Positions 10,896-25,751 of a DNA stretch of 25,751 bases are shown one piece after another. The notes under the pieces are model-generated. The model was given only the letters and a program-made list of their open reading frames with translations, searched no databases and was not told where the DNA came from. The stretch comes from a virus. The position numbers and the translations under genes were made by a program. Position 1 is the first letter of the stretch. Every line of letters starts with the position of its first letter. The DNA is taken from the IMG/VR virus record IMGVR_UViG_3300042691_024754, positions 1 to 25,751 of that record. The stretch is one strand, 5' to 3'.

Positions 10896-10925
10896 TCTCT
10901 GCCCGGCGTTCCGAAAGGACTCCTG

Positions 10926-10964: not shown

Positions 10965-10982
10965 GACAACGGAGAACCTGCA

Positions 10983-11471: not shown

Positions 11472-11475
11472 CCTG

Positions 11476-11492
11476 CAGTGACACGAAGTCAA
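11476..11492 (+). repeat. Dispersed 17-base motif, copy 2
   Basis: CAGTGACACGAAGTCAA is identical to the copy at 4305-4321. It begins five bases after the stop of the 10983 gene and contains a possible GTG start (11478) for the next gene. Confidence 0.5.
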
Positions 11493-11509
11493 AGTTTCGG
11501 TGATCGCTA

Positions 11510-11526
11510 CGCCGCGTTCCGCGGCG
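11510..11526 (+). promoter_or_regulatory. GC-rich hairpin between the 17-base motif and ATG 11574
   Basis: CGCCGCG, loop TTC, CGCGGCG forms seven perfect pairs. If ATG 11574 is the true start this lies in the leader; if GTG 11478 is used it is coding. No T-run follows, so a terminator is unlikely. Confidence 0.35.
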
Positions 11527-11573
11527 CGATCAAGAACGCAGATCCATCCCTCTCGCGCAACCACGACCGACCC

Positions 11574-12143: not shown

Positions 12144-12146
12144 GAC

Positions 12147-12743
12147 GTGTGGATCTTCTCCACCTACGGGTTCTTCTCGGTCGTGTGCCTGAACAACCGG
12201 CCGCTCGACGGCTCTCCGCTCCGCGGCAAGCTGTCGGTCGACAAGGAGCGCGTGGCTGTGCGCGCCCGCGTCAGGGCGCACCTGGAGAACCTGCTCAAGG
12301 ACTACCCAGAACTCAACGTCGAGATCCTGGACACGCCCGGTCGTGACTACGCCTGTCGGATCGTCTTGTCGAGGTCTGCCTGGGCTGAGGTCGTGTCCGA
12401 GATGGCCAAGGACATCGACTACGAGAACTTCAAGGGCCGTGTCGGGCACGCGGACCCAGCGTATGCCGACTGGCTCAGCCGTGTGTGGGGGATCGGCCAC
12501 GGCGTGCAGGCCAAGTCCAGCATCCTGTCCGCTGCGAGCGTTGACCTGCTCAACTTGCCGACGCGCGCGTTCATCCAGCACGTTCGACGGAGCGTTTCGC
12601 GTCTTGGCTGGAAGGATCAACCTCTCGCTGTCCTGCAGGCGCTCAAGGTGCGCGGCTGGATCGAACTTCGAGGCACGGGGCCGAATGCCAAGTTCGACCT
12701 GACGGAGGAAGGCCAGCGTCGGCTCGGGGTCATCGTCCCGTGA
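12147..12743 (+). CDS. Conserved 'MWIF...GFFSVV' family protein with a winged-helix-like C-terminus
   Basis: This 198-residue protein uses GTG 12147. The first 115 residues match a widespread bacterial and phage protein of unknown function recognised by a start MWIFSTYGFFSVVC, then VRARVRAHLENLL, ETPGRDY-type DTPGRDYACRI, IDYENFKGRV, and DPAYADWLSRVWGI. The usual family member ends about there. Here a further 80 residues follow, with RAFIQHVRRSVSRLGW, LAVLQALKVRGWIELRG and FDLTEEGQRRLG. These resemble a winged-helix domain in which a recognition helix precedes a beta wing. DNA binding by the extension is therefore plausible but unproven. The stop overlaps the next GTG. Confidence 0.75.
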   Translation: MWIFSTYGFFSVVCLNNRPLDGSPLRGKLSVDKERVAVRARVRAHLENLLKDYPELNVEILDTPGRDYACRIVLSRSAWAEVVSEMAKDIDYENFKGRVGHADPAYADWLSRVWGIGHGVQAKSSILSAASVDLLNLPTRAFIQHVRRSVSRLGWKDQPLAVLQALKVRGWIELRGTGPNAKFDLTEEGQRRLGVIVP

Positions 12744-13105
12744 CGCTCAAGCCCATCTCGTTCCGCTCGCGTGGACTCTGGCTGTCCGGGGTCCGCGCGG
12801 AGGTGCAAGAGGTGAAGAAGGCACACCGGAAGGCGTGTCACATCTGCGACAAGATGCCGTCGGGTCTGCGCCTACACGTTCAGACCGGTGCGGGACGATC
12901 GGCGTCGACCGCGATCCTCTGCCGCGTCTGCGGCGAAATGTGGACCTCCATGATCGTGCGCGAGGGTCTGCGTGTCGTCGGCGTCCTCAAGGGCACGATC
13001 ACGGATGGCCGACCTGTTCGGCTCGGGTGGGACGCGAAGCATCAGCGTTCGATCTGGATCAAGACCAAGATGCGACCGAAGAAGAAGGAACCGAAGGAAC
13101 CATGA
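12740..13105 (+). CDS. Small zinc-binding protein
   Basis: A 121-residue protein with a GTG start overlapping the preceding stop (GTGA). It carries CHIC at 33-36 and CRVC at 61-64, a CxxC...CxxC pair spaced like a zinc ribbon or HNH-associated zinc knuckle. An HNH nuclease is not supported, because no His-Asn-His array follows. The C-terminus is very basic (KTKMRPKKKEPKEP). It may bind nucleic acid or a partner protein. It overlaps the DNA ligase start by ATGA, implying coupled translation with the ligase. Confidence 0.68.
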   Translation: MTLKPISFRSRGLWLSGVRAEVQEVKKAHRKACHICDKMPSGLRLHVQTGAGRSASTAILCRVCGEMWTSMIVREGLRVVGVLKGTITDGRPVRLGWDAKHQRSIWIKTKMRPKKKEPKEP

Positions 13106-14238
13106 ACCTCCCGACTCTCTATCATCGCGGCAAGAAGGGCGAGGTGCGCGTCTGGCGCACCTGGGCCATCGGCGATACCGTGTTCGCCGAGTCCGGTGTG
13201 CAAGGCGGCAAGCTCACGCGCTCGTCCTACAAGTGCGAGCCGAAGAACGTGGGTCGCTCGAACGCCACGAGCGCGAACCAGCAGGCCATTGCCGAGGCGA
13301 AGGCTGACTGGCAAAAGAAGCGCGATCGCAAATACAGCGAGTCAGTGCCGCCTGAGGACCAGACGCACGAGAACATGCCGATGCTCGCTCAATACTTCTT
13401 CGTGAAGGGCGAGCCGGGAGTGCTCACGTCACACGCCAAGAAGATCAATTGGCCTGTCGACGTGCAGGTCAAGTTCGACGGCGTTCGTGCGAAGGCTCGG
13501 CGTGTGGATGGCGCGATCAAGCTGTTCCCGCGCTCCGGCCAGCTCGACGAGTGCTACGACGCTCGGCACGTCATCCAGCAGCTCGACAAGTGGCTGCCCG
13601 AAGACATGGAGCTGGACGGCGAACTCTACGTGCACGGCAAGAAGCTGCAGGAGATCACGTCGCTTGCGAAGCGGTTCCGCGTGCCGGACTCTACTGTCCT
13701 GATCTATCAGGTCTACGACGTGCCGATGTTCCAGGGCGACCGGACGAAGCCTTGGGCCATGCGGCGCAAGCTGCTCGAATCGGTCGTGACCGAGACGCCG
13801 AGCGTGAAGCGCGCAGTGACTGTCACGGTGTCGAGCATCGAAGGGGAGAACGGCGTGGTCGATCTGTTCCGTCGGTTCCGCGAGCGCGGCTTCGAGGGCG
13901 CGATGGTTCGTCTGCACGACGGCCTCTACGAATGCGGCCACCGCTCGAAGTCTCTGCTCAAGGTCAAGGAGCACCTGGACGACGAGTTCGAGGTGATCGG
14001 GTGCAAAGAGGGCGTGGGGAAAGCCGTCGGAACTGCCACGTTCATCTGTGTGACGAAGGACGGGAAGGAGTTCGACGCGACCATGCGCGGCACGATCGAC
14101 GAGCGACGCCGCTTCTGGGCCGACCGCAAGCTCTACGTCGGTCGCAAGCTCACCGTGTCGTTCATGCGCTGGACCTCGGAGGGCAAGCCGCAAGAGCCGG
14201 TCGGCGAGGCGTTCCGCGACGAGCGCGACCTCGGGTAG
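13102..14238 (+). CDS. ATP-dependent DNA ligase with WGR-like N-terminal domain
   Basis: This 378-residue enzyme starts at ATG 13102, overlapping the zinc protein stop. Residues 1-80 (TLYHRGKKGEVRVWRTW, GGKLTRSSY, KNVGRSN, EAKADWQKKRDRKY) form the WGR-like domain found in some phage ligases. The nucleotidyltransferase core shows motif I VKFDGVR with Lys 124 as AMP acceptor, motif III ELDGELY 170-176, IIIa IYQVYDV 201-207, IV FEGAMVR 264-270 and V LLKVK 285-289. An OB-fold-like C-terminal region includes EVIGCKEG and the RRFWADRKLYVGRKLTVSF stretch. It seals nicks in phage DNA during replication and recombination. All catalytic motifs look intact. A promoter-like element overlaps its stop. Confidence 0.94.
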   Translation: MNLPTLYHRGKKGEVRVWRTWAIGDTVFAESGVQGGKLTRSSYKCEPKNVGRSNATSANQQAIAEAKADWQKKRDRKYSESVPPEDQTHENMPMLAQYFFVKGEPGVLTSHAKKINWPVDVQVKFDGVRAKARRVDGAIKLFPRSGQLDECYDARHVIQQLDKWLPEDMELDGELYVHGKKLQEITSLAKRFRVPDSTVLIYQVYDVPMFQGDRTKPWAMRRKLLESVVTETPSVKRAVTVTVSSIEGENGVVDLFRRFRERGFEGAMVRLHDGLYECGHRSKSLLKVKEHLDDEFEVIGCKEGVGKAVGTATFICVTKDGKEFDATMRGTIDERRRFWADRKLYVGRKLTVSFMRWTSEGKPQEPVGEAFRDERDLG

Positions 14239-14241
14239 ACT
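14234..14241 (+). promoter_or_regulatory. Extended -10 promoter element, leaderless start for the 30-residue peptide
   Basis: GgTAGACT overlaps the ligase stop codon TAG. Six bases separate its end from ATG 14248, so the predicted transcription start coincides with the start codon. No Shine-Dalgarno is present in the gap. Confidence 0.45.
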
Positions 14242-14247
14242 GGCGCG

Positions 14248-14340
14248 ATGCGACGCCGCTGGTTCTGGCCGTTCTGGATCCTCGTGTCGTTCCTCGCGAC
14301 CGCGGCGATTGTCGGGCTGCACGCGCTGCTTAGAGGCTGA
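14248..14340 (+). CDS. 30-residue single-span membrane peptide
   Basis: ATG 14248 to TGA 14340 encodes a peptide of 30 residues: a basic start MRRRW, then a hydrophobic stretch of about 20 residues (WFWPFWILVSFLATAAIVG) and a short LHALLRG tail. This looks like a single transmembrane helix with positive-inside N-terminus. The -10 element is positioned for leaderless translation. Its stop lies just before the AT-rich block of the ThyX promoter. Function is unknown; a small membrane toxin-like or accessory lysis peptide are both possible, without specific support. Confidence 0.5.
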   Translation: MRRRWFWPFWILVSFLATAAIVGLHALLRG

Positions 14341-14357
14341 AAATCTCGGGCAGCGCG

Positions 14358-14365
14358 GCTACTGT
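14358..14365 (+). promoter_or_regulatory. Extended -10 promoter element, leaderless start for ThyX
   Basis: GcTACTGT ends seven bases before ATG 14373, so the mRNA would begin at or one base before the start codon. GAAAATCTCGGGC begins 21 bases upstream of the TA, similar to the block upstream of 23599. Confidence 0.48.
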
Positions 14366-14372
14366 CCTCGGG

Positions 14373-15491
14373 ATGAAGCCCGAAGCACAGCTCGTCTACG
14401 ACGGCCACGAACTTCACGTCCCGACTGCCTGCGGGATCCCGACGCATACCCAACTGACCGGAACGGTCGCGGAGAACCTCTGCGAGCTGGCTGGGCGCGA
14501 GTGTTACGACTCGCTTGGCGTGGAGCACAGCCGTGGCTCTGCCGACTTCCATCAGCACATTCTGGAAGTCGGGCACCTGTCGATCTACGAGCACTTCAAC
14601 TTCACAGTCGGCATCCCTGCGCTGGGCTGTTTCATCGCCGACTTCGGGCCGGAGCAGTTTGCGGCGCTGCTGTCGCTCATGAACCGACCGGGCCTGTATT
14701 GCCGAACGGACCCGTCGCATCAGGACTCGCTGCGCCTGACGTTGAACCTGCGGTGCATCTTGGAATGGTCGAAGTGGGGAGACCATTCGGAGTGCTCTCC
14801 TGCTCTGTCGCACATCGCGCACAACTTGGCTCCGGCCATCATTCGCGTCCCAGGCCCCCGTGACGAAAGGTCTCCGCTTCCGGCCGGAGCCCGGTCGGGT
14901 CGCACTGGTGGTCTCGACCCGATCGACGATGAGGAGCGTTGGGTCACGCTACGGCTGGCGGGATCGCGCGGGTTCTCGCACGAGCAGGTTCGGCATGGTG
15001 ACCGGACCGCGATCTCGCAACGCAGCACGCGCTACGTGGATGAGGCGAACAGCGATTGGTGCATGCACCCGCTGGTCCTGGCCATGATGGACGATCCACA
15101 GAACCACGAGTTCTTTGGCCGCGTGCAGCGATTCATCGACGAGTCTCGCAGCATCTACAGCGAGATCGTGCAACGCGGATCAGAGCGCCTGATGAACAGC
15201 GGTGCGAAGCTGACTGCTGTTGGGTCGCGCAAGCAGGCGCGGGGTGCTGCTCGCGGCTTCCTGGGCAACGCGCTCGGCACGTCCTTGATCTTCTCGGCGA
15301 GCGTCGCGCAGTGGCGACGCATGCTCGTGATGCGGTGCCACCCAGCGGCCGACGCGGAGATCCGAGAAAGCGCGGCTGCTGCGCTCGCTTGCCTCAAGCA
15401 GTCCGCCTACGCTGACCGCTTCGCCGATATGGTGCTGGTGCCGTCGCCCGACGGGCTCGGCGAGGTGCTGGCCGATGGGATCAAAGCCTGA
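14373..15491 (+). CDS. thyX: ThyX-type flavin-dependent thymidylate synthase
   Basis: A 372-residue protein from ATG 14373. It shows family landmarks: GHLSIYEH at 67-74 (the 'H..lEH' region), the ThyX motif as RHGDRTAISQRSTRY at 207-221, and the C-terminal substrate arginine region RKQARGAARGFLG followed by SASVAQWRRMLVMRCHPAADAEIR. It should make dTMP from dUMP using methylene-tetrahydrofolate, FAD and NADPH. The motif has one extra residue between RH and the SQRSTRY part compared with the classical RHRx7S spacing. The protein is also over 100 residues longer than typical ThyX, with a long insert at about 105-190. The leaderless start is supported by the -10 placement. A P-loop kinase overlaps its end, forming a nucleotide-metabolism pair. 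Confidence 0.88.
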   Translation: MKPEAQLVYDGHELHVPTACGIPTHTQLTGTVAENLCELAGRECYDSLGVEHSRGSADFHQHILEVGHLSIYEHFNFTVGIPALGCFIADFGPEQFAALLSLMNRPGLYCRTDPSHQDSLRLTLNLRCILEWSKWGDHSECSPALSHIAHNLAPAIIRVPGPRDERSPLPAGARSGRTGGLDPIDDEERWVTLRLAGSRGFSHEQVRHGDRTAISQRSTRYVDEANSDWCMHPLVLAMMDDPQNHEFFGRVQRFIDESRSIYSEIVQRGSERLMNSGAKLTAVGSRKQARGAARGFLGNALGTSLIFSASVAQWRRMLVMRCHPAADAEIRESAAAALACLKQSAYADRFADMVLVPSPDGLGEVLADGIKA

Positions 15492-16197
15492 ACTCGTTCT
15501 CGTCTCGGTGTCCGGCGCGCAAGCGACGGGCAAGACGACGTTGCTGACCGCCCTGGCGCAGGAGGTGGCCAAAGGGCCGACCTGCTTCTGCGTCAGGACT
15601 CCGTCGTTCGGCACGCGTCTGTTCGAACGGTGGAAGGCTCGGACCTTGTCGAACGCGCCCATGCCGGTTGCCAGCTTCGACGAGATCGACGGGCGCGGTC
15701 ACCGCGAGTGGTTCCAGCGGCAGCTTCCTGAGGCCCTGTCGTTCGAGGTCGAGATCGCGGCGCAGATGGTGCGCAATACCGGATCGTCGTCGAATTACAT
15801 GCTGGTCGACCGCTGGTTCCCGGACATCATGGCGCACACGCGCCTCGGGCTCTCGAAGGACGACATCGCGCAGCGGCAGATCCGTCGTCTCTGTCGTGAT
15901 CGGAACCTTCAACTGCTCGAACACCTCAGCGCGCACTTCTCTGTGCTGCACGTCACCGTGTTCGTTCCGGTCGCCGTGTCGGACTTCAACGTGTCAGGTC
16001 AGGACGGGAAGTTCCGTGCGACCACTGACCGCGACGCGTTCGAATCGGCTTGTCTGCAGGAATGGCCGATGGTCATGGACAAGCTGCCCATGCTCAAACT
16101 CTCGTCGCCTGATCTCGCGACGCGCGTTCTCGATACTAAGCTCGCTATCCAGACTGCCAGGACTGCCAATGACTCAAGACCAGCAAAGCGTTCCTAG
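15475..16197 (+). CDS. P-loop kinase of the AAA_28/NadR-like or thymidylate-kinase-like group
   Basis: This 240-residue protein starts at ATG 15475 within the ThyX end (17-base overlap). Walker A is GAQATGKTT at 14-22. YMLVDRWFPDIMAHTRLGL at about 108-126 resembles the 'DR...D..a' element of nucleoside and nucleotide kinases. LSAHFSVLHVTVFVPV is a Walker-B-side strand. An Arg-rich lid-like region is not obvious. Because it follows ThyX, phosphorylation of dTMP or another deoxynucleotide is a sensible hypothesis, but AAA_28 proteins have varied substrates and sequence alone does not decide. The next gene starts inside its 3' end. Confidence 0.68.
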   Translation: MGSKPELVLVSVSGAQATGKTTLLTALAQEVAKGPTCFCVRTPSFGTRLFERWKARTLSNAPMPVASFDEIDGRGHREWFQRQLPEALSFEVEIAAQMVRNTGSSSNYMLVDRWFPDIMAHTRLGLSKDDIAQRQIRRLCRDRNLQLLEHLSAHFSVLHVTVFVPVAVSDFNVSGQDGKFRATTDRDAFESACLQEWPMVMDKLPMLKLSSPDLATRVLDTKLAIQTARTANDSRPAKRS

Positions 16198-16552
16198 CCC
16201 GTTCATCGTTCGCGTCGACACCTACGAGAACCACTTGGGTCAACGCCTGTTCGCTCGCGTCGTGGTGTCGGGCGAGGCACCGTCGGGCTTCGCTCGGTTC
16301 ATCGGCGTTGGGCAGATCAACATCCCGAACTCGCCGGTTGGCCCGGTCAGCCACCCGTTTCAGTTCGCGATCGACGCGGACTCGGTGGAGCGGGCGTTTT
16401 CCCTGTTCGAATCGACCGCCCAATCGGAAGGGAAGGCTGAGTTCGATAAGCTACGGGCCGACATTCGTCGACAGATGACGGCCGTGCAGGTTGCTCCTGC
16501 GGGAGCCCTTGGCTTGCTCGACCCGTCAGGCAACCCAATCAAGAAAGGCTGA
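16169..16552 (+). CDS. Unknown 127-residue protein upstream of the 725-residue protein
   Basis: ATG 16169 is preceded by AGGA and overlaps the kinase gene by 29 bases; the open frame further upstream is a shadow of the kinase. The first 70 residues alternate beta-like segments (FIVRVDTYENHLGQRLFARVVVSG, FIGVGQINIPNSPVGPVSHPFQFAI) and are followed by a helix (DSVERAFSLFESTAQSEGKAEFDKL). The stop lies three bases before the 725-residue gene, so the two are probably translated together. No family recognised; a partner of the large downstream protein is a reasonable guess. Confidence 0.65.
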   Translation: MTQDQQSVPSPFIVRVDTYENHLGQRLFARVVVSGEAPSGFARFIGVGQINIPNSPVGPVSHPFQFAIDADSVERAFSLFESTAQSEGKAEFDKLRADIRRQMTAVQVAPAGALGLLDPSGNPIKKG

Positions 16553-16555
16553 GGT

Positions 16556-18733
16556 ATGACCACTGCTACTGCTCCCGTCCAGATCCCGGTCTTGACCGCG
16601 ACTGGCATCCGTGCGGTCCTGACGAACCCGTCTCCGCGTCGCCGACGCGAGTGGGTTTCGGTTTCGGTTCCGTTTGGCTCGATGACGTCTCTGCGCCCGG
16701 TGTTCTTGACCGATCGCGGCCTCCATCTTCGCGCTGCTCGCGGCGAAGACGTCGGCGATCAGGGCACCATCTACCGCGTGTTCGCCCCGTTCGACGGCTT
16801 TCAGTCGGTCATGGGCGAGTTCATGCTGCACAACGCGATCGTCGACGATCCGTTCAAGTTCCACCCGTGGTGCACGGACGCCACCGAGAAGCTCATCCCG
16901 AAGCTGGAGCTTCGTCTCCGTCGAAACGGGCAGAGTGTCAGCTACCGCACGAACGAGCCGTGGGAGCTGTTCGAGATCGAGTCGAAGAGCGACGCGCACA
17001 TCCGGTTTCGCTTCGTTTCGAAGCTCGGCAACTCGGGGTTCCTTGTGGAGGGCTGGACCACCTTCCACGACAACTCGCCAATCGCGGACGTCCGTGTCGC
17101 GTTCATCTGGTCGGACCGCAACAATCCGGCGCACGACATGCAGATCGAGGGCCTGTTCTTCCTGACGGGAGAGCCGGTCGTGTTCGACTTCGCCGTGCGG
17201 AACGGCATGACGCCGCTGCCGGTGTTCAACGGTCAGCACTGGGTCTCGCAGGTTTGCGGACCGATCAGCTTCATCGACGGCTCCGGCTTGCCGCTCATCG
17301 GTCGCATGCTGTGCCTGCCGGAGAACGCGTCCTCTCAGCCGATCTACGACCCGGACACCTACAACGAAACCGACGCGAACGCGCAGGTCGCGCAGGACAT
17401 CGAGTCGATCTTGGCTGCGGCTCATCTGCCGGTTCTCGGCGTGTGCGGCCCGCGAACGTGGAACGGCAAGACGCTGGCGCATCGGAACATCCCGCGCATT
17501 GGCCGGCCGAAGGAGCACGTCGAGGCGATGGCCGATCAGGTGCTCGACAACTTCTTCAACAACACGCTGGCTCTCGCTGGTCAGTTCTACGACTCGCGTC
17601 CGATCGGCATCGGCAAGACGCCGGGGCAGACGGGCGACCAGCAAGACTTCGGCTCGCAGAAGGGATGGGAGGCGACGGTTGCGGCCGACCCGCGGTGGCT
17701 GCACTACGCGATGCACTCGGTCACGTCGGACTTCTTCCGCGGCTTCATGCACTACGAAGCCAACGGTGCGCGCCTGAACCTCTCGGCGCATCCGAGCTGG
17801 GTCACTTGGGGCATGCGGACGCACTACAGCACGTCCGTGTCTCCAGATCGCTTGGGCAAGAGCCCGCCCGTGTGGGGCGCTGGTGAGTCGGTCGGCTGGT
17901 GGGGCTACGACGAAGAGCATCGGAGCCAGACGAACCTTGCGCAGCTCTACCTGCTGACGGGCGACCCGCTGCTCCGCTACATCATCGAGCACTGCGCCAC
18001 GACCGACACGGCCAACGTCCGGGTCAAGCTGGAGTTCGGGACGGGTGCGCCGCGTGCGATCGGTCGACAGGTGCACTGCTGGAGCAACTTCATGCTGCTG
18101 TGCCCGCCGACGTCGCCGGTCAGGCAGCAGTTCCGCGCGGCGATCGACCGGATGGCTTTCCTGACGATGCGCGACTGGCTGGGCGACAAGTTCCCCGGGC
18201 CGGTCGACATCATCTCGGACCGTCTCGATCCGCGCATGGGCATCACGCACAACGGCGCGGTCTTGCCGGCGTGGTCGTGCTGGGAGCACGGGCTGTTCGT
18301 GGTCGGTGCCTACGCTGCCTGGAAGGCGACCCGCGACGAGCGTTGGCTCACTCTGGTTCGTCGGGTGTGCCGCACGATCGTTCGCTACGCGACGTTCCAG
18401 GACCAGCAAGGCTGGACGTTCATCGCGACGTGTCACTGGCCGAAGCCGGGCGTCGGCCCGACCGGCGTGGCCGAAGGTCAGCCGCTGCCGACGCAGTGGG
18501 TTTCGCGCGAGTCGACCCTGGTCACGCCTTTGAACGGCGACGTCAGCACCTGGACGCAGAACGCCATCCTGATCTTCATCGAGACGCACGAGGCGAACGA
18601 TCCGGACATGGCGCGAGCGCAGGCGATCGCGCAGGCGTTCATGCCGTCGGACCCGGTCGATCCCAGGACGGCCGAGTGGCAAGCATGCGTCAGGTCGGTC
18701 CCGCCGGTCCCGGGTGACTGGGCTCGCTACTGA
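16556..18733 (+). CDS. Large protein with a possible carbohydrate-active-enzyme-like alpha-helical domain
   Basis: The gene encodes 725 residues from ATG 16556, with AAAGGCTGAGGT upstream. Residues 1-270 are beta-rich (EWVSVSVPFGSM, GFLVEGWTTFHDNSPIADVRVAF). From about 440 to 640 come paired helices with repeated patterns such as LAQLYLLTGDPLLRYIIEH and VVGAYAAWKATRDERWLTLVRRVCRTIV. Aromatics are plentiful, including ESVGWWGYDEEHRSQTN. This beta-sandwich-plus-helical-toroid plan recalls exo-rhamnogalacturonan lyase (YetA-like) or glycosidase proteins. There is no signal peptide, so a virion protein acting on surface polysaccharide is possible. The similarity is structural intuition, not a motif match; catalytic residues cannot be assigned. 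Unknown structural protein is the fallback. Confidence 0.6.
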   Translation: MTTATAPVQIPVLTATGIRAVLTNPSPRRRREWVSVSVPFGSMTSLRPVFLTDRGLHLRAARGEDVGDQGTIYRVFAPFDGFQSVMGEFMLHNAIVDDPFKFHPWCTDATEKLIPKLELRLRRNGQSVSYRTNEPWELFEIESKSDAHIRFRFVSKLGNSGFLVEGWTTFHDNSPIADVRVAFIWSDRNNPAHDMQIEGLFFLTGEPVVFDFAVRNGMTPLPVFNGQHWVSQVCGPISFIDGSGLPLIGRMLCLPENASSQPIYDPDTYNETDANAQVAQDIESILAAAHLPVLGVCGPRTWNGKTLAHRNIPRIGRPKEHVEAMADQVLDNFFNNTLALAGQFYDSRPIGIGKTPGQTGDQQDFGSQKGWEATVAADPRWLHYAMHSVTSDFFRGFMHYEANGARLNLSAHPSWVTWGMRTHYSTSVSPDRLGKSPPVWGAGESVGWWGYDEEHRSQTNLAQLYLLTGDPLLRYIIEHCATTDTANVRVKLEFGTGAPRAIGRQVHCWSNFMLLCPPTSPVRQQFRAAIDRMAFLTMRDWLGDKFPGPVDIISDRLDPRMGITHNGAVLPAWSCWEHGLFVVGAYAAWKATRDERWLTLVRRVCRTIVRYATFQDQQGWTFIATCHWPKPGVGPTGVAEGQPLPTQWVSRESTLVTPLNGDVSTWTQNAILIFIETHEANDPDMARAQAIAQAFMPSDPVDPRTAEWQACVRSVPPVPGDWARY

Positions 18734-18743
18734 GCAGTGGCTC

Positions 18744-18785
18744 GGGCTCCTGCTGTGGGTAGAATCGAACCACCCGCAGGAGCCC
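18744..18785 (+). promoter_or_regulatory. Inverted repeat sequestering the ribosome-binding site, with an internal promoter
   Basis: GGGCTCCTGC 18744-18753 pairs perfectly with GCAGGAGCCC 18776-18785. An inner stem GGGTAG 18757-18762 / CCACCC 18770-18775 adds five pairs around one A-C mismatch. The right arm contains AGGAG, the Shine-Dalgarno of the gene at 18787. The -10 TAGAAT (18760-18765) lies inside. RNA reading through from upstream would hide the site, whereas RNA starting near 18772 lacks the left arm. No T-run follows, so a terminator is unlikely. Confidence 0.65.
18758..18765 (+). promoter_or_regulatory. Extended -10 promoter element inside the hairpin
   Basis: GgTAGAAT is the site closest to the classical TATAAT consensus in this set. 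The predicted start near 18772 gives a leader of about 15 bases with AGGAG before ATG 18787. Confidence 0.5.
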
Positions 18786-18786
18786 A

Positions 18787-21700
18787 ATGCACAAGCTCGA
18801 TCGAACGCGCTACCCCTCGCATCTGACCGAACAACGCCGAGCGTCTGCAGCTCAGATCAAGAGCCTGCTCGCGTTGATCGACTCGGACCTTCCGCTCGAA
18901 TCGGTTGGCGCACTGCTCGGCAGTGACATCGAGTCATCGCACGGTCACTCCCTGTCCTACGTTTCGTGGGTCTTGGAGGTCGCGCAGCTTGCGCCGGATG
19001 CATCGGCACGCGCGTTTGCCAAGTCCTTCCTGGAGCGACCGCACGACTACTCCAAGACCAAGGCCGGCATCTCGGCGATCATGCTGGAGGTCTGGTTGTC
19101 GCGCCGCGGGCAGGCGCTGTTCAAGAAGTTCGTCGAGACCGTCGTGGACGGACAGGACACGTTCCTCGCGGTGTTCGACGGTCCGATCTCGCAGACCGAG
19201 TTCGACCGGATGAAGCTCCAGACCGAGGAGTTCGTCGCGGAGTTCACTCCGCTTGTTCTGGCTGGTCAGCGCAATCAGGACAACATGGTCTCGGACCTGA
19301 CGATCTTCGAGGTCAAGGCGGCGAAGAGCCTGACGAAGGACAGCTTGCCCGGGCAGTCGAGCGCGGAGGTTCGTCCGGGCGCACCTGACCCGGGCGACGA
19401 CGAGCGGAAGCGTGAGAACTCGCTCCGCCCCGAATCTCGTCAGGACTACGAGCGCGTGATCACGGAAGGCGGGATCTCGACCGCGGCCCTGCCGGTCGTG
19501 TTCGGTCCGGACCTGCGCCCGGTGTCGACGGGGTCGCTCGGGACGGCGTTCACAGACCAGAACGGCGTCGTGTGGGAGCGGCTTCGCGACGCGAGCGGAT
19601 GGATTCCGCGCCTGGACACCAAGGTCGAGGAAGGTGGCGGACCTCCCGGTCTCCGCCGGGCGACCAAGGGCTCGTGGCAGAGCTGCCAGACGTGCGCGTC
19701 CTACGACCACCCGGCCAACGGCAAGTCAGGGCAGTGCTCGCAGTTCGGCATCGACGTCGCGCCGACTCAAATCTGCGACGTTTGGGATGGTCGTGAGACC
19801 GGAGCCGAGTCCGTGCAGCCTGTCGTGAACATCGTGGTCAGCGAGGACGAGGATCCCGAATCGGGATTGCCCCAAGCTCCTGAGCCCGAACCCTTGCCTT
19901 ACGAGGTGACCGAGGCGGGCGTCACGCGCTCTCTGTGCGGTTCCTGGGCCGTGTTCGAGGCTCCGGTGGCTGGCGGCTCGTCCATGACCGTGATCGTGGC
20001 TGAATCGGCCGCCTGGGCGCTCAACGTGCCGATGGAGAAGGTGGTCGAGACCGTTCGGGATCTTTCGGCGTGCTACCCCGAGACCGCTGCGTGGCACCGT
20101 GACCTCTGCGTCGAGCACGCCCTGGCCGAATGGGCGCGCGACGAAGGTGCCGAGGTCGAGAACCTGGACGAGTGCCTCCAGATCGCTGCGCGCAACGACG
20201 ACCTGCTGGCCGAGCGCGATTCGGCGGTCGCTGCGACGCTCACCGAGGCTGACGACAAAGAGAAGGAGCCCAAGGAGCCGAAGGTCGCGAAGAAGCCAGC
20301 GAACGCTCCGCCAGTTCCGCCTGCGCCCCCGGAGCCTCCGGAGCCGAGCGATCGGATGGACGATCCCGAGTTCTATCGAGACGATCTGCAGACCTACTAC
20401 GACGTCCAGATCCTCGCGGGCCTGTCGCCGAAGAAGGCCGAGCAGAAAACGAAGCAGCGGTTCGGTGTGAAGGAGCTGCTTGTCACGCCGACAGGTGAAG
20501 TGCGCTCTCCTGGTGTGACCGACCGTCCGAAGCCGCCACCTCCGCCGATGCCGGGTGGCGAGCCGGGCGCTCCGCCAGCTCCGATCGAGCAACCGGACGG
20601 CGCTCCAGACCAAGCTGCGGCTGGTGCCCCTCCGGCCAAGGAGGGCGTGGCTGAGGTCGCGTCTGTCGTGTCGGCGTGGGCCAAGCGTTCGGGCAAGTCG
20701 CAAGACGAAGCTGAGCGCCTGTGGCAGAAGGCCGGCGACCTCGCGTCGAAGAACTACCCCGACCTGAGCCCGAAGAGCGATCGCTGGTATCAGGTCAAGA
20801 TGGGGATCTACCGTCGCATGGTGGGTGTGGCCGCCGAGTCGCGTTACGCCGAGCCCGAGACCATCGACGATGCATTCCATCGCTGGGTCAGGCACGCGGA
20901 CGGCGACGTCCAGGACTTCGAAGAATGGCTCGCGGACAACCACCCGAAGTTCTTGCCGCACGTCGTGCATTGGGCTCCTGCCGACTTGCACGAATCGAAG
21001 AAGTGGCCGGCTGGTCTGACGGCCGAGCACGACGAACGCTACGCCAAGTGGGTTCGGCTGATGAACATGACGCCGCACGAGATCCGCGTGATGGCGCGTC
21101 GCGTGAGCGAAGCCACCACGTCGCTGTCGGTTAGCGGTCTGCGTGCGTTCACGCTCGGCCAGCGCAGCACGCGACGCTTGCTCGCCATGAAGACCAAGCC
21201 GGTCAAGTCCTGGACCGAGGACGACTGGAGCTGGGCGTCGCGCCAGATCAACACGGTCAGCAAGCTCCGCGCGTCGCCGGGTCCGCTGTTGAAGGACGGC
21301 AAGCCGACCGAGAAGCTCGTCTTGCTGCGCGCCTGGGGCCACGAGCCTCGCGTCAGGTCTCGCGTGTCCGAGCGCGAGGTCATGGTCAACCAGCGCGTGA
21401 ACTGGCGTTGCCGCTCGTGCCATGCTCTCGTGACCGAGTCGAGCCTGCGCTACGAAGGCGAGTCTTGGATGCACTCGTGCGGGAAGGCTCTGATCGTCCC
21501 GGTGGCTGACGAAGAAGCGCGCCGGCAGGTCAATCGGTGCGTCATCGACGTGACCCCTGGCTCACTGCCCTGCTTGATCGGCGAGTCTGCGCCGTCGTTC
21601 GCCGATCTGAAGGCCGGCAAGGTCGAGCTGGCCGACGACGAGCGTGCCGAGGTCATGCGGAAGAAGGCCGTGTGGCACTTCTCGCATCACAAGGGCAAGG

Positions 21701-21837
21701 CGAGCGCGGCCGTTTGGAAGTCGATCGTGGACGGCAAGACCTACTTCGTGACGAACACGCACAGGGCCTACAACGTCGCGCCGACGGTCAAGGGCGCGAT
21801 CAACCGCTACCACGCGTTCATCAAAAGCACGGCCTAG
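18787..21837 (+). CDS. 1016-residue multidomain phage protein
   Basis: ATG 18787 follows AGGAG, which is buried in a hairpin. From the N-terminus: a helical region (1-170); a cysteine module CQTC at 300-303 with C317 and C330, ending QICDVWDG; a mixed domain 370-490; a Pro/Lys-rich linker 495-520; and a second Pro-rich linker 578-618. Next comes a helical segment 621-682 (RSGKSQDEAERLWQKAGDL...SDRWYQVKMGIYRRMVG), known to me as a recurring phage-protein tail. Residues 761-856 contain LSVSGLRAFTLGQRSTRRLLAMKTKP and WTEDDWSWASRQ. A zinc ribbon uses C875, C878 and H896/C898, and a terminal domain contains AVWHFSHHKG, WKSIVDGKTYFVTNTHRAY and KGAINRYHAFIK. It looks like several phage modules joined by linkers. 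Function unknown. Confidence 0.72.
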   Translation: MHKLDRTRYPSHLTEQRRASAAQIKSLLALIDSDLPLESVGALLGSDIESSHGHSLSYVSWVLEVAQLAPDASARAFAKSFLERPHDYSKTKAGISAIMLEVWLSRRGQALFKKFVETVVDGQDTFLAVFDGPISQTEFDRMKLQTEEFVAEFTPLVLAGQRNQDNMVSDLTIFEVKAAKSLTKDSLPGQSSAEVRPGAPDPGDDERKRENSLRPESRQDYERVITEGGISTAALPVVFGPDLRPVSTGSLGTAFTDQNGVVWERLRDASGWIPRLDTKVEEGGGPPGLRRATKGSWQSCQTCASYDHPANGKSGQCSQFGIDVAPTQICDVWDGRETGAESVQPVVNIVVSEDEDPESGLPQAPEPEPLPYEVTEAGVTRSLCGSWAVFEAPVAGGSSMTVIVAESAAWALNVPMEKVVETVRDLSACYPETAAWHRDLCVEHALAEWARDEGAEVENLDECLQIAARNDDLLAERDSAVAATLTEADDKEKEPKEPKVAKKPANAPPVPPAPPEPPEPSDRMDDPEFYRDDLQTYYDVQILAGLSPKKAEQKTKQRFGVKELLVTPTGEVRSPGVTDRPKPPPPPMPGGEPGAPPAPIEQPDGAPDQAAAGAPPAKEGVAEVASVVSAWAKRSGKSQDEAERLWQKAGDLASKNYPDLSPKSDRWYQVKMGIYRRMVGVAAESRYAEPETIDDAFHRWVRHADGDVQDFEEWLADNHPKFLPHVVHWAPADLHESKKWPAGLTAEHDERYAKWVRLMNMTPHEIRVMARRVSEATTSLSVSGLRAFTLGQRSTRRLLAMKTKPVKSWTEDDWSWASRQINTVSKLRASPGPLLKDGKPTEKLVLLRAWGHEPRVRSRVSEREVMVNQRVNWRCRSCHALVTESSLRYEGESWMHSCGKALIVPVADEEARRQVNRCVIDVTPGSLPCLIGESAPSFADLKAGKVELADDERAEVMRKKAVWHFSHHKGKASAAVWKSIVDGKTYFVTNTHRAYNVAPTVKGAINRYHAFIKSTA
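18921..18937 (+). repeat. Weaker copy of the dispersed motif
   Basis: CAGTGACATCGAGTCAT keeps TGAC-n5-GTCA and matches the 17-mer at 13 positions. It lies 134 bases into the 1016-residue gene and is preceded by a small CACTG-CTCGG-CAGTG hairpin. Confidence 0.25.
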
Positions 21838-21872
21838 CCGTGACTTTCCGGACTGGATCTTGCTTTTCGCGT

Positions 21873-21880
21873 GCTAACGT
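21873..21880 (+). promoter_or_regulatory. Extended -10 promoter element, near-leaderless start for the winged-helix gene
   Basis: GcTAACGT ends eight bases before ATG 21889; the mRNA should start one or two bases from the start codon. It lies in the 51-base gap after the 1016-residue gene. TTGCTT lies nearby but only 9 bases upstream, too close for a standard -35. Confidence 0.45.
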
Positions 21881-21888
21881 CTGCCGGC

Positions 21889-22215
21889 ATGTCTCCGGCA
21901 ACCAGACGTTCAGATCCTGCGACGAGCCATGCCGCGGCCGAATCTGTCGGCGACGTTCGGCTCCGACAGCTCGCCGTTCTTCGTGTTCTCGTTCACAACC
22001 CAGGTCTGACTGACGAGCAGATTGCTAGCAACTACGTCGGACCTGTGCAGTCTCCCAGTGGGCTGCGAACTCGTCGGAGTGAGCTTGTAGCCCTCGCCCT
22101 CGTCGAGGACTCCGGGGCGCGTGCGCGCATGCTTAGCGGTCGTCTGGCGATCGTTTGGTCGCCGACTGCCGAAGGAGTTCGCGTCGTGGCAGGGTCGTCC
22201 AAGAGGAGGCTGTGA
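21889..22215 (+). CDS. Winged-helix DNA-binding protein of a phage-common family
   Basis: A 108-residue protein from ATG 21889 (an in-frame ATG at 21871 precedes the -10 element and is unlikely). Order of features: RRSDPATSHAAAESV, then helix RLRQLAVLRVLVHNPGLTDEQIA, then QSPSGLRTRRSELVALALVEDSG as the recognition helix region, and ARMLSGRLAIVWSPTAEGVRV as the wing. This matches small phage winged-helix proteins with a 'T..E......PSG.RTRR.EL...G.V...G......GR...VW..T..G' pattern. A transcriptional regulator is plausible, and it is a candidate binder for the dispersed motif, but no link is shown. It overlaps the next ATG as TGATG. Confidence 0.75.
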   Translation: MSPATRRSDPATSHAAAESVGDVRLRQLAVLRVLVHNPGLTDEQIASNYVGPVQSPSGLRTRRSELVALALVEDSGARARMLSGRLAIVWSPTAEGVRVVAGSSKRRL

Positions 22216-22682
22216 TGTCCCGTTACGCCGCCGGCACGTCCGTCTCGGTTGACCGCTCGATCGTGCAGATCCGGCAGCTCGTCATGCGCTTCGGCGCGGA
22301 CAAGTTCGCGATCGCGACGGGCCGGAAGACCGCGACCGTGGCGTTCGCCTACAAGGGCCGCCCGGTCAAGTTCGACCTGTCGCTGCCCGACCAGGACGAC
22401 CCGACGTTCCAGGTGACCGAGACGGGACGGCCCCGGCGTAACGCCGCCGCGCCCCTGCAGGCTTGGGAGCGCGCGTGTCGGGAGAAGTGGCGAAGCCTGC
22501 ACCTTCTGCTCAAGGCCCTGTTCGTCGCGATCGAGGAAGGCTTGCTCGACTTCGATCGGGCGTTCATGCACGACATCGTCATGCCCGACGGCCGCACCGT
22601 TGGACAGAAACTCCTGCCGGTCGTTCAGGACGCGGTCTCCCGCGGCGACGTCGGCGCTCAACTCCTGCTCACGAACTCCTGA
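22215..22682 (+). CDS. Conserved phage hypothetical protein
   Basis: The start is ATG 22215, overlapping the previous stop as TGATG, with AGAGGAGG upstream; 155 residues. The sequence follows a phage-common pattern: SRYAAGTSVSVDRSIVQIRQLVMRFGADKFAI, KGRPVKFDLSLPD, then AWERACREKWRSLHLLLKALFVAIEEGLLDFDRAFMHDIVMPDGRTVGQ. I recognise this layout from uncharacterised phage and plasmid proteins without an assigned function. No catalytic signature is visible. It is the middle gene of a coupled run starting at 21889, with its stop overlapping the following ATG. Confidence 0.75.
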   Translation: MSRYAAGTSVSVDRSIVQIRQLVMRFGADKFAIATGRKTATVAFAYKGRPVKFDLSLPDQDDPTFQVTETGRPRRNAAAPLQAWERACREKWRSLHLLLKALFVAIEEGLLDFDRAFMHDIVMPDGRTVGQKLLPVVQDAVSRGDVGAQLLLTNS

Positions 22683-23173
22683 TGGACACCGAAACGCTGT
22701 TGCGGCGCAACGTCGCCGAACTCCGCTCACTTCTCGACCTGAGCTACGCCCGCGAATGTCGCCTCATCGAAGCCGTCAAGGCGCTCCAGTTCTTGCTCGA
22801 AGGCGCGGCCATCGCGCCTGCCCGTGTTGACGAGCAGGCGAACATCGTGGCGAAGGTGGCCGAGACGCTTCGGTCGTTGACTGACAGGCCGGTTCCGAAT
22901 CACGGCTTGTTCGTGGACTACGCGCGGCAGACAGCCGAGCTGAAGGCCGCGGCCGTGCTGAACGGCACGCTGAACTCGGCGCTCAACGCGGCACAGCAGC
23001 AGGTCGCGACTCTGACGGCCGACGCGAACAACCTGCGGCTCCGTGTGATGGAGTCTGAGGTCGTGCGTGACGCGATCGTTGCGCTTCTGAACCGTCGTGA
23101 CCTGACGGACTCGATCGAGGCTTCGGTCAAGGCGCTCGTGCAGGCTCGCTCCGCCGCAGGACGGACCGGATGA
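22682..23173 (+). CDS. Coiled-coil protein, unknown function
   Basis: A 163-residue product from ATG 22682, overlapping the previous stop as TGATG; the frame is open upstream but that part is Arg-rich shadow. Most of it is helical, and residues 85-130 (AELKAAAVLNGTLNSALNAAQQQVATLTADANNLRLRVME) have heptad-like spacing of hydrophobics. No enzymatic motif or cysteines of note. The next gene begins at its ATGA stop. Confidence 0.68.
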   Translation: MDTETLLRRNVAELRSLLDLSYARECRLIEAVKALQFLLEGAAIAPARVDEQANIVAKVAETLRSLTDRPVPNHGLFVDYARQTAELKAAAVLNGTLNSALNAAQQQVATLTADANNLRLRVMESEVVRDAIVALLNRRDLTDSIEASVKALVQARSAAGRTG

Positions 23174-23535
23174 AGGTCAGGGTCTACGAGGTCTTGCGCT
23201 GTTTCGAGGTGGACGTGGAGGGCAACGGTCCGATCGCGATGCGTGATGCGATCGCTCGTGTGGAGCGCGGCGAGGTTCCGGCCATCGAGCCGGAGTGCCG
23301 GCACATCGCGTTCCCCGCGGACTCTCGCATCGCTACGGAAGACCCTCGGGAGGTCTTGCGCTCCCTGCTCAAGGCGACGCCTGACCAATGCGTCGCGGCT
23401 GCACAATCCGCTGGGCTGTTCTGCATGGACGACCCCAACATCTTGATGGACCGGGCCGGCTGGACGTCTGCGGTTCTGCGCCGAGCGATTACGCAAGGGC
23501 GTCTTGCTGCGCTGGTCTCGGCGATCAGAAGTTGA
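23170..23535 (+). CDS. Unknown 121-residue protein
   Basis: ATG 23170 overlaps the preceding stop as ATGA. It begins with a beta-like MKVRVYEVLRCFEVDVEG, then a helical part with SLLKATPDQCVAAAQSAGLF and an Arg/Ala C-terminus. No family recognised. It is last in the 21889-23535 operon; a 77-base gap with the 23599 promoter follows, and apart from that element I see nothing else in the gap. Confidence 0.62.
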   Translation: MKVRVYEVLRCFEVDVEGNGPIAMRDAIARVERGEVPAIEPECRHIAFPADSRIATEDPREVLRSLLKATPDQCVAAAQSAGLFCMDDPNILMDRAGWTSAVLRRAITQGRLAALVSAIRS

Positions 23536-23598
23536 GGCAGGAAAAGAGCTTCCGGTGGCACGGGCAGGACAGATCGGGAGGAAAATCACGCGCTACCC

Positions 23599-23606
23599 GG
23601 TAAGAT
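23599..23606 (+). promoter_or_regulatory. Extended -10 promoter element, leaderless start at GTG 23613
   Basis: GgTAAGAT is followed by six bases and then GTG 23613, so the predicted transcription start coincides with the start codon. GAAAATCACGCGC begins 20 bases upstream, matching the block before ThyX at most positions. Confidence 0.5.
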
Positions 23607-23612
23607 TCTGGT

Positions 23613-24050
23613 GTGGCGACTCCCCCGCGCATCGAAATCGACAGCCTGTGGTGCAAACGCGATGACCACGCGAAGGTCGTCCGCGTCCTGGCAGCTCCGA
23701 CCACTACGACCTCGCCGCGCATCTCCTACCAGGACGAGCTGTCCAAGCGGGTGCATGCGACGTGGCTCGACCGCTTCTTGACGGTCTACCAACCGGTGCG
23801 CCCGATCTCGCGCGACGAGATTGTCACGCGTCTCCGCGCTGCATCGTCGCTCGGCAAGCCCGTCACGCTGCTCCCGCACGAAACTCGCGCGCTCCTGTAT
23901 CACCTGCGGCGCAGTGACACGGAGTCAACGCGCAACGACGAGAACAAGGCGCTGCGCGTGACGGTTGCGGCTCGCTACGGCCTGATGCCGGACGCCTCCA
24001 TCAACGAGATCCTTTCGGTCATCCCCATCCATGCCAATCCAGCTAAGTGA
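23613..24050 (+). CDS. Unknown 145-residue protein with a leaderless GTG start
   Basis: GTG 23613 has no Shine-Dalgarno but lies six bases after a -10 element. The first 60 residues (IEIDSLWCKRDDHAKVVRVLAA...ISYQDEL, then RVHATWLDRFLTVYQPV) form a short beta-strand pattern ending in 'FL..Y.P', like small phage proteins with an SH3- or Tudor-like barrel. The rest is helical and includes ISRDEIVTRLRAASSLGKPVTLLPHETRALLYHL. Function unknown. A dispersed motif copy lies within it, and its 3' end overlaps the methylase start by 20 bases. Confidence 0.62.
   Translation: MATPPRIEIDSLWCKRDDHAKVVRVLAAPTTTTSPRISYQDELSKRVHATWLDRFLTVYQPVRPISRDEIVTRLRAASSLGKPVTLLPHETRALLYHLRRSDTESTRNDENKALRVTVAARYGLMPDASINEILSVIPIHANPAK
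23912..23928 (+). repeat. Dispersed 17-base motif, copy with one mismatch
   Basis: CAGTGACACGGAGTCAA differs from the 4305 and 11476 copies at one position. It lies inside the 23613 gene and encodes SDTEST. Confidence 0.45.
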
Positions 24051-24792
24051 ATCTGTTCGCGACGTCCTGACCCGTTCGACCATCACGTCCACGACCGTCA
24101 CGCTTCCGCCCGAGCAGCTCGAACGGAAGCTCTACGTCGAGGTCAACAAGGTTCTCGAAGCGGCAGGCGGCAAATGGGACAGGCGTGTGCGCTCGCACGT
24201 CTTTCCGTCCGACCCGCGCGAGCTGCTCGGGCTTGCCTTGGAGAAGGGAGCGATCGTTTCGAAGAAGCAGGAGCTGCAAGCGTTCTACACGCCGGATGCC
24301 TTGGCCGACCAGATCGTCAAGCTGGCTGCCGTGCGCCGTGGCTCTGTTGTGCTCGAACCATCTGCAGGAGCCGGCGCGCTGGCCAAGGCATGCTTGCGTG
24401 CTGGTGCGCTGCCTCGCGACGTCTACTGCCTCGACATCGACCCGGAAACCAGCGCGCACCTGTCCGGGTTCTCGCTCATCTTGCAGGACTTCCTCATGTG
24501 GTGTCCTCCTGATCGTGTCGGCACGTTCGACGCGGTCGTGATGAACCCGCCGTTCACCCGTGGGCAGGACATCGCGCACGTTGCACACGCCCTCGCGTTT
24601 CCTGCGCGCGAATGCATGCTGGTCTCGGTCATGACGCCGACTTGGCTCACGTCAGACAAAGCTGCGGCTCGTGCGCTGCGCTCCCAGCTCGATCGCGGCT
24701 ACGACTGGGAGACCAAGCCACTGCCCGACGGGTCGTTCAAAGAGTCGGGCACGAACGTCAAGACCATCTTGCTGGTCGCGCAGAGGCGCTGA
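24031..24792 (+). CDS. N6-adenine DNA methyltransferase, orphan
   Basis: This 253-residue protein starts at ATG 24031. Residues 30-60 (ERKLYVEVNKVLEAAGGKWDRRVRSHVFPSDP) form an N-terminal module seen in phage and plasmid methylases. The Rossmann core has FYTPDALADQIV at 85-96, motif I VLEPSAGAGALA at 107-118, acidic CLDIDP at 133-138 and catalytic motif IV NPPF at 172-175. It should transfer a methyl group from S-adenosylmethionine to adenine N6. No restriction enzyme is nearby, so host-restriction protection or regulatory marking is more likely than a restriction-modification system. The target site is not readable from sequence. Confidence 0.85.
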   Translation: MPIQLSESVRDVLTRSTITSTTVTLPPEQLERKLYVEVNKVLEAAGGKWDRRVRSHVFPSDPRELLGLALEKGAIVSKKQELQAFYTPDALADQIVKLAAVRRGSVVLEPSAGAGALAKACLRAGALPRDVYCLDIDPETSAHLSGFSLILQDFLMWCPPDRVGTFDAVVMNPPFTRGQDIAHVAHALAFPARECMLVSVMTPTWLTSDKAAARALRSQLDRGYDWETKPLPDGSFKESGTNVKTILLVAQRR

Positions 24793-24816
24793 CCGATGAC
24801 CCGGCGTCTTGTCTCG

Positions 24817-24824
24817 GATACCAT
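24817..24824 (+). promoter_or_regulatory. Extended -10 promoter element upstream of the 24848 gene
   Basis: GaTACCAT fits the set. The predicted start near 24831 gives a leader of about 17 bases carrying AGGAG, followed by ATG 24848. The layout closely parallels the 18758 promoter (23 versus 21 bases from -10 to ATG, both with AGGAGCCC). Confidence 0.45.
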
Positions 24825-24846
24825 GGGCGCTCTCGACAGGAGCCCC
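24825..24846 (+). promoter_or_regulatory. Short hairpin covering the ribosome-binding site of the 24848 gene
   Basis: GGG 24825-24827 and GCTC 24829-24832 pair with GAGC 24840-24843 and CCC 24844-24846, with one bulged C and a seven-base loop. The right arm includes part of AGGAG. Its left arm is almost wholly upstream of the predicted start near 24831, so only read-through RNA could form it. Confidence 0.4.
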
Positions 24847-24847
24847 T

Positions 24848-25210
24848 ATGCCGCAAGCCTGGATCCTCGACCGTCTCCAGCGGAACCAACCCGCTACCGA
24901 ATGGCGCGTCGCGTTGTGGGCGGACGTCAACACGCCCGAGCGTCGTCGTTGGTATGCCAAGCCTCTGACCTGGACGAGCGCGTTCAAGGACGCGACCTCC
25001 CAGCATCTGCAGGATCTGCGTGCCGGGGTCATGACCGAAAAGGTCATCACGCTGTCCTACACGGACTCCGTGACGTTCGCGCAGGTCAGGCTGGACATCC
25101 AGGAGCAGCTCAACGCGTTCCAGAGCCTGACGAACAACCTGAACCTCTGGAACCGCTACGGCTCGCACTTCGACGGCACGACCTGGGACGTGATCGCGAA
25201 CAACCCGTAG
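24848..25210 (+). CDS. Unknown 120-residue protein with its own promoter
   Basis: ATG 24848 follows AGGAGCCCC. An upstream in-frame ATG at 24809 precedes the -10 element and is rejected. The protein has a Trp-rich N-terminal part (MPQAWILDRLQRNQPATEWRVALWADV, RRRWYAKPLTWTSAF) and a C-terminal half with VTFAQVRLDIQEQLNAFQSLTNNLNLWNRYGSHFDGTTWDVIANN. Tyr, Asn and Trp are enriched, as often seen in virion proteins, but no family is recognised. Confidence 0.65.
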   Translation: MPQAWILDRLQRNQPATEWRVALWADVNTPERRRWYAKPLTWTSAFKDATSQHLQDLRAGVMTEKVITLSYTDSVTFAQVRLDIQEQLNAFQSLTNNLNLWNRYGSHFDGTTWDVIANNP

Positions 25211-25229
25211 GCTCGGGGCGGAGGTCCAG

Positions 25230-25643
25230 GTGACCTTCGCTCGTCGCGCTTGGATCAATCAGCCGTCCGCCTCGCAGCCGCTGCACAGCATGCACGGCGT
25301 CCGGGTGATCGCGCTTCCGGCTCAGGATGGCTACTGCACGGTCTATCCGGTCGACGGTGACACCGTGTCACTGCGGGCTTCGACCCTGTGCTTGTCGGAC
25401 GGCTGGCCCGCTCCGAAGCCAGACAGCCCTACGGTCGTGGCCATGCTGGAGGAGTGCCTCAAGTTCACCGAGGGCCTGTTCGCCCGCGAGATCGCCGTGC
25501 TGGAGCGCGAGAAGGAGGCTCAGGTCATGAGCCAGAACTTCGACGCGGCTGCGCAAATCGGTGCCGAGATCGTCGAGCTGCGGTATCGCTGGTCCAACAA
25601 GGGCATCGCGAAGCGCATCCGCGCGGCGCTCGGGAGGCCGTGA
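25230..25643 (+). CDS. Conserved phage hypothetical protein (INQPS...LHG...ALS-type)
   Basis: GTG 25230 follows GGAGG; 137 residues. The first 65 residues match a small-protein pattern common in phages and plasmids: WINQPSASQPLHSMHGVRVIALP, a beta segment GYCTVYPVDGDTVSLRASTLCLSDGWP. The usual family member ends about there. Here a further helical part follows (VVAMLEECLKFTEGLFAREIAVLEREKEAQ), probably coiled coil. Function unknown. It contains the reverse-oriented motif copy at 25357 and overlaps the next ATG as TGATG. Confidence 0.72.
   Translation: MTFARRAWINQPSASQPLHSMHGVRVIALPAQDGYCTVYPVDGDTVSLRASTLCLSDGWPAPKPDSPTVVAMLEECLKFTEGLFAREIAVLEREKEAQVMSQNFDAAAQIGAEIVELRYRWSNKGIAKRIRAALGRP
25357..25373 (-). 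repeat. Palindromic, reverse-oriented copy of the dispersed motif
   Basis: GTGACACCGTGTCAC (25357-25371) is a perfect 7-1-7 inverted repeat. Read on the - strand, 25373 to 25357 gives CAGTGACACGGTGTCAC, 14 of 17 identical to the copies at 4305 and 11476. It lies inside a coding region (GDTVSL). Confidence 0.4.
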
Positions 25644-25751
25644 TGTATTGCGTCCTGGACCCGAAAGGAAAGCTGCTCGGACCCTTCACCACGATCGAGG
25701 CAGCTCGTCGCGAGTGCGCGTGGTCTGGTGGCCACGTCTACCTCCTGCAAG
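25643..25751 (+). CDS. N-terminus of an unknown protein, cut by the window edge
   Basis: ATG 25643 overlaps the previous stop as TGATG and GGGAGG lies upstream. The 36 visible residues begin MYCVLDPKGKLLGPF and continue TTIEAARRECAWSGGHVYLLQ. This resembles short proteins with a 'G.yl..p.G...G.f.t...A' beta-turn-helix unit, but too little is present to assign a family. Confidence 0.6.
   Translation, partial: MYCVLDPKGKLLGPFTTIEAARRECAWSGGHVYLLQ

Follow-up and report, generated by a model that had tools for sequence, protein, structure and literature searches.

The start of one long gene in a virus contig raises the question of whether the point at which transcription begins decides whether the resulting RNA can be translated. 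The contig, analysed over its whole length of 25.75 kb (hereafter the window; 64% GC, with nearly all genes on the + strand), encodes a T4-like portal protein (Pfam Portal_T4), a large terminase, SbcCD-like (gp46/47-type) proteins, a DNA ligase and ThyX. It belongs to an uncultivated, high-GC phage lineage that has only a distant T4-like portal in common with T4. The gene in question (18787..21837, + strand) encodes 1016 residues and begins at an ATG that is the first possible start after an in-frame stop; genes were called with a small program made for the purpose. A preliminary description of this DNA called the product a large multidomain protein, a label that we drop because the product matches no family: no relative was found in Pfam, PHROGs or the PDB, and an AlphaFold model of the N-terminal region (pLDDT 68) gave no confident fold match.

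Upstream on the same strand lie a gene for 127 residues (16169..16552), which forms the left border of a variable slot, and a gene for 725 residues (16556..18733), the putative source of read-through RNA. The end of the latter and the ATG at 18787 are separated by 53 bases, within which an inverted repeat at 18744-18785 overlaps the Shine-Dalgarno (SD) sequence.

A hairpin over the Shine-Dalgarno sequence

The repeat, present as a single copy in the window, reads GGGCTCCTGC-TGT-GGGTAG-AATCGAA-CCACCC-GCAGGAGCCC, followed by AATG. Its hairpin, -10 element and SD lie where they were first described: the anti-SD strand GGGCTCCTGC (18744..18753, +), which only read-through RNA would contain, pairs perfectly over 10 bp with GCAGGAGCCC (18776..18785, +), which holds the SD AGGAG (18778..18782, +), and TAGAAT is in the left half. 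The inner stem had been placed at 18757-18762/18770-18775; its five pairs and one A.C mismatch exist, but ViennaRNA prefers a stem of 4 bp between GUGG (18755..18758, +) and CCAC (18770-18773). In ViennaRNA the 44-nt hairpin (18744-18787) folds with -28.3 kcal/mol (z = -5.5; none of 200 shuffled versions reached this stability), and RNA from 18772 folds with -3.9 kcal/mol (z = 0.1) and has no stable structure. Stems of 10 bp with loops of 3-40 nt occur three times in the window, with 2.4 expected; a stem of this length is not rare by itself, but one placed on an SD is rare.

The score given to each start was the free energy needed to open its SD. At 18787 this cost falls from 14.3 kcal/mol in read-through RNA to 4.3 kcal/mol in RNA from the predicted start at 18772, which bears out the earlier expectation that in-silico folding would find the SD hidden in the long RNA and free in the short one. 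It stays at 10.8-14.3 kcal/mol with 60-250 nt of upstream and 20-60 nt of downstream context, and drops from 11.6 to 2.1 kcal/mol while the 5' end shifts from -42 to -33. When the 60 nt upstream were shuffled, with SD and start fixed, the observed sequestration was reached in 1 of 1000 sequences. T4 served as positive control: the cost fell from 14.1 to 3.2 kcal/mol for gene e and from 9.4 to 5.0 kcal/mol for segB, and among the 23 scored starts of a 12-kb stretch of T4 (60000-72000) e ranked first and segB fourth.

Inside the 1016-residue gene, at 20965..20981 (+), there is a 17-nt perfect reverse complement of its ribosome-binding site and start codon (18776-18792), a longer match than at any other of the 541 starts examined; it may be due to chance.

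A predicted promoter within the hairpin

TAGAAT occurs once in the window, at 18760..18765 (+), between the two arms of the hairpin and with a G at -14. Intergenic sequence (2.75 kb) has 11 instances of the pattern G.TA...T, against seven in the 24.4 kb of coding sequence read in sense and none in antisense coding sequence (odds ratio for intergenic enrichment 14, P = 2e-7); because it is enriched between genes, we read the site at 18760 as one of a class. The element had been called a good extended -10, of which the G at -14 is present, but the TG stands one base further upstream than it should (TGGG-TAGAAT). The best -35 for this promoter is poor (GTGGCT). A generic sigma-70 scan of 9001-25751 returned no promoter; as that scan demands a -35, a -10-centred analysis was used in its place. 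If active, the promoter would give the gene its own RNA with a predicted 5' end at 18772 (+), the seventh base after the -10, and a 15-nt leader, ACCCGCAGGAGCCCA.

The suggestion that this promoter acts perhaps later is not supported by the sequences, since the promoters here and in the orthologues described below are host-sigma-like (TAGAAT; TTGACA-17-TATCCT; TTGAAT-16-TAAAAT) and not of the T4 late type, TATAAATA. The promoter at 18760 does not contain TATAAATA, a sequence that defines the late-gene subset of such systems and not the gating mechanism, and TATA is absent from the whole window on both strands.

Several G.TA...T sites of the window (14236, 14360, 21875 and 23601) belong to promoters of leaderless type, in which the -10 ends 6-8 nt before the start codon, and one of them would feed a 30-codon open reading frame (14248-14340) that by appearance encodes a tiny membrane protein. 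Leaderless genes with a -10 next to the open reading frame have been described, e.g. in Deinococcus-Thermus (PMC12340547).

We consider it probable that these elements make up a gate on translation that is set by the transcription start site. Any read-through RNA from the 725-residue gene would carry both arms, its GC-rich hairpin would bury AGGAG, and the 1016-residue protein would be made poorly from it. The -10 between the arms (18760-18765) would direct an RNA start near 18772, and RNA from there would have lost the whole left arm, expose a free SD and be translated. With read-through RNA gated and its own RNA free, the gene would be expressed only from its own promoter, insulated from the upstream cargo gene. 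Against such a gate stand the poor -35, the TG out of register and the lack of a hairpin in three of seven orthologues.

Orthologues in related contigs

A portal-alignment scan led to 17 related contigs, and orthologues of the 1016-residue protein, recognised through the N-terminal domain with E values from 1e-21 to 1e-79, are encoded in 6 of the records covered by the search. Single-protein scans with the 1016-residue and 725-residue proteins found no relative, and a scan with an alignment of the orthologues found none beyond those already known; the contig of the closest relative, G001, stops before it reaches the locus. The orthologues are too distant for a covariation test of the stem.

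Ranking 369 SD-bearing starts, from the window and nine related contigs, by SD-opening cost placed at the top a different gene of G007 (L059:10777; 18.6 kcal/mol), followed by the orthologue in G013 (L052; 16.2 kcal/mol), the window (14.3 kcal/mol) and the orthologue in G005 (L047; 12.9 kcal/mol). Ranks 2-4 of 369 thus belong to the 1016-residue gene and its orthologues (indicative hypergeometric P about 1e-5; P = 6e-5 when only starts behind a gap of at least 30 nt are counted), and of 20 groups the orthologue group has the highest mean cost (indicative permutation P = 2e-4). All four of these strongest hairpins have a promoter score in the top 5%, with the predicted start inside the hairpin or at its edge (indicative P = 2e-4 for an intergenic gap of at least 30 nt). 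The nested promoters are TTGATC-17-TATGCT in G007, TTGAAT-16-TAAAAT in G013, TAGAAT with G at -14 in the window and TTGACA-17-TATCCT in G005, and truncation lowers the cost to 2.9, 6.2, 4.3 and 3.4 kcal/mol, respectively. We call the P values indicative because the gene calls and promoter scores are our own, the scoring scheme was made for this analysis and the promoter-score cut-off was set after the top matches had been inspected.

The hairpin arms of the window, G013 and G005 have no sequence in common, and the same anatomy recurs on orthologues of the 1016-residue gene with unrelated sequence. The preliminary description had looked to homologous loci for a case in which the stem was lost while AGGAG and the -10 were kept; no orthologue has that arrangement. 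Three of seven orthologues (G003, G007 and G014) are without such a hairpin and also without a nearby TA...T -10; the one in G014 overlaps its upstream neighbour and so leaves nothing to gate. The orthologue in G012 has no SD hairpin and a leaderless start from an identical 11-mer promoter core, GGTAGAATCGA, which is found nowhere else among the relatives fetched. Leaderless initiation in general is likewise most effective on RNA with a 5' end of its own, and the same would apply in G012.

The start at the head of the ranking, L059:10777 with its nested TTGATC-17-TATGCT, belongs to a gene for a 94-residue cysteine-rich protein. Weaker candidates for gates of this kind are window 24848 (9.1 to 3.6 kcal/mol on truncation) and position 10586 on the minus strand of L047 (9.3 to 2.7 kcal/mol).

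Cargo upstream of the gene

The 725-residue gene was not found in relatives, which have other cargo in its place. A homologue of the 127-residue gene directly precedes the orthologue in G014 and, on a weaker match (E = 0.001), probably in G012. Between the two, or upstream of the orthologue, lie the 725-residue gene in the window, an HNH/NUMOD4 endonuclease gene in G005, cas5c-cas8c-cas7c with a repeat array in G013 and a tmRNA in G007. The G013 cargo, directly upstream of the orthologue, is of CRISPR type I-C, with cas5c, cas8c, cas7c and an array of 9 repeat copies (L052 7969-12035, minus strand); the G007 tmRNA, just upstream of the orthologue, is phage-encoded and carries the tag ANPFAQQSRVAA (L058 13256-13628).

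Given that the cargo just upstream differs from relative to relative, the gate most likely serves to insulate the gene from read-through; it would keep the output of the 1016-residue gene independent of the cargo. Insulation is not universal, as is seen in G003 (a 135-residue gene between, no hairpin) and in G007. A broader reading, which we hold only tentatively and think doubtful, is that in this phage lineage a resident gene just downstream of a hot spot for foreign cargo has had its own-promoter-dependent translation rebuilt repeatedly by selection from unrelated sequence, as a hairpin with a nested promoter or, in G012, as a leaderless start. If so, gating of this kind would offer phages a general means of coping with inserted cargo.

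Alternative explanations

The hairpin could instead act on transcription, stopping or pausing incoming RNA polymerase while the nested promoter restarts it. Its position right after an upstream gene that is missing from relatives would suit such an insulator, and the G013 stem, which is followed by TATTTTTT, a possible U-tract, could do both. A terminator need not overlap an SD, however, and yet three orthologues put the stem exactly there; the site is absent from the listing of the terminator scan, and no U-run follows the stem in G005 or in the window (AATGCAC). The GC stem at 18744-18785 thus lacks the U-run of an intrinsic terminator, intrinsic termination is unlikely in the window, and we regard an insulator of transcription as unlikely overall. 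A DNA-level operator, in which the inverted repeat would bind a protein over the promoter and the RNA hairpin would be a by-product, seems to us quite unlikely. Palindromes over promoters are common and this phage has another palindromic motif near starts, but the arms have no sequence in common between orthologues, no second copy exists in the window and the repeat is centred so as to pair with the SD. Of the four top hairpins, three also have G.U pairs that favour the RNA of the + strand (+/- strand folding -22.5/-13.5 in G013, -21.3/-17.0 in G005 and -30.8/-26.7 in G007b); for the window the - strand has a small advantage (-33.3 vs -35.8 for + and -), so there wobble pairs give no support for RNA. 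The other motif, the palindrome-like TGACAC-N3-GTCA, has 10 matches at 6 sites in the window (4308, 8582, 11479, 18924, 23915 and 25358) vs 1.8 expected; one match ends at the ATG at 4321, another starts within the GTG start codon at 11478, and the one at 25358 is perfect (TGACACCGTGTCA). G005, G007 and G013 also have a similar motif, TTGACANTGTGTTAA, which in G005 overlies a -35.

That the hairpin is the target of a translational repressor protein, in the manner of T4 gp43 or gp32 on their leaders, is highly improbable. SD-overlapping leader hairpins are so used in T4 (PMC3014915), but the predicted own RNA is without the left arm, which leaves nothing structured for a repressor to bind, and neither loop nor arm sequence is common to the orthologues. 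Scarcely credible is a tRNA-like or attachment-site element on the minus strand, where GGTGG-TTCGATT-CTACC has the form of a canonical T-arm and TAGAAT would merely be its complement. The T-loop consensus is perfect, the stem has 5 bp including one G.U, and the only exact match of the 20-mer in viral contigs (L024) resembles a tRNA 3' half; against this, neither ARAGORN nor Rfam finds a tRNA, the extended element has no exact match in 84,980 bacterial and archaeal genomes, and the SD pairing and the orthologous hairpins would be left unexplained. With no tRNA detected and no match in those genomes, we rejected the resemblance as coincidence. The L024 sequence (10326-10380, +), which is on an AT-rich phage contig with no detectable tRNA, is possibly an attachment site. 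A chance hairpin with no function is likewise very improbable: 10-bp stems are expected about 2.4 times in such a window, but the position on the SD, the 1 in 1000 of the shuffled null and the orthologues at ranks 2-4 of 369 speak against it.

Comparison with known systems

The proposed gate set by the start site has a precedent in the T4 late genes e, soc and 49, which the preliminary description named correctly (PMC3014915; PMC2988022). In the T4 gene e leader a hairpin forms in early read-through RNA, and the late promoters lie in its 5' strand (PMC3014915). T4 e and the window both have the SD in the right arm, the promoter within the left-arm segment and an own RNA, predicted in the case of the window, without the left arm, and their computed SD-opening costs are nearly equal (14.1 to 3.2 vs 14.3 to 4.3 kcal/mol). 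The window likewise combines an SD in a stable helix of the long RNA with an SD freed by truncation, and its -10 at 18760-18765 predicts a start, 18772, past the left arm. The hairpin of the G013 orthologue also resembles that of T4 e (AAATACCTTCTA...GGAGGTATT). The two differ in that T4 e has gp55-dependent late promoters, whereas the window has a promoter of host-type appearance on a different gene in a high-GC phage known from sequence alone.

The same gating is documented for T4 soc, 49, I-TevI, I-TevII, I-TevIII and segB, and in hairpins of Aeh1 mobE (PMC3014915, PMC2988022), with the logic proposed for the window and mostly in places where RNA that runs on from an upstream unit has to stay untranslated. 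Several of these T4 and Aeh1 gates block early expression of the mobile gene itself, whereas the window would gate a resident gene downstream of a variable slot. Closest in promoter class are two predicted gates, at the starts of T4 regB and denV, where a host-type promoter (TATAAT and TATGAT, respectively) is nested in a strong SD-hiding hairpin; truncation lowers the cost from 13.1 to 0.2 kcal/mol for regB and from 10.5 to 1.6 kcal/mol for denV, whose leader has a 10-bp stem, TCTCCTGTAG/CTACAGGAGA. No published account of these two gates was found in the literature searched.

Cluster K mycobacteriophages have 13-bp GGGATAGGAGCCC repeats at many starts and conserved 17-bp inverted repeats (SAS/ESAS; PMC3203893). 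Like the window they have an SD-containing AGGAGCCC near starts, with inverted repeats upstream of some, but SAS/ESAS are repeated, conserved sequences, whereas the window hairpin is a single copy without the 13-bp consensus. We rejected identity with SAS/ESAS, as exact CAGGAGCCC is limited to two sites on the + strand, of which the hairpin is one.

The locus is thus probably, as read from its sequence, a new example of control of the T4 e/soc/I-TevI type, with a host-like promoter and in a distant lineage. A control device documented in T4 and close relatives would now extend to an uncultivated, high-GC phage lineage. As the device recurs on one gene without conservation of sequence, sequence searches miss it, and scoring of structure against promoter position is required; such scoring recovers T4 e and segB and is applicable to any phage genome. 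The locus also suggests a use for the device beyond the delay of late genes, namely to protect a resident gene against transcripts that run on from a cargo slot.
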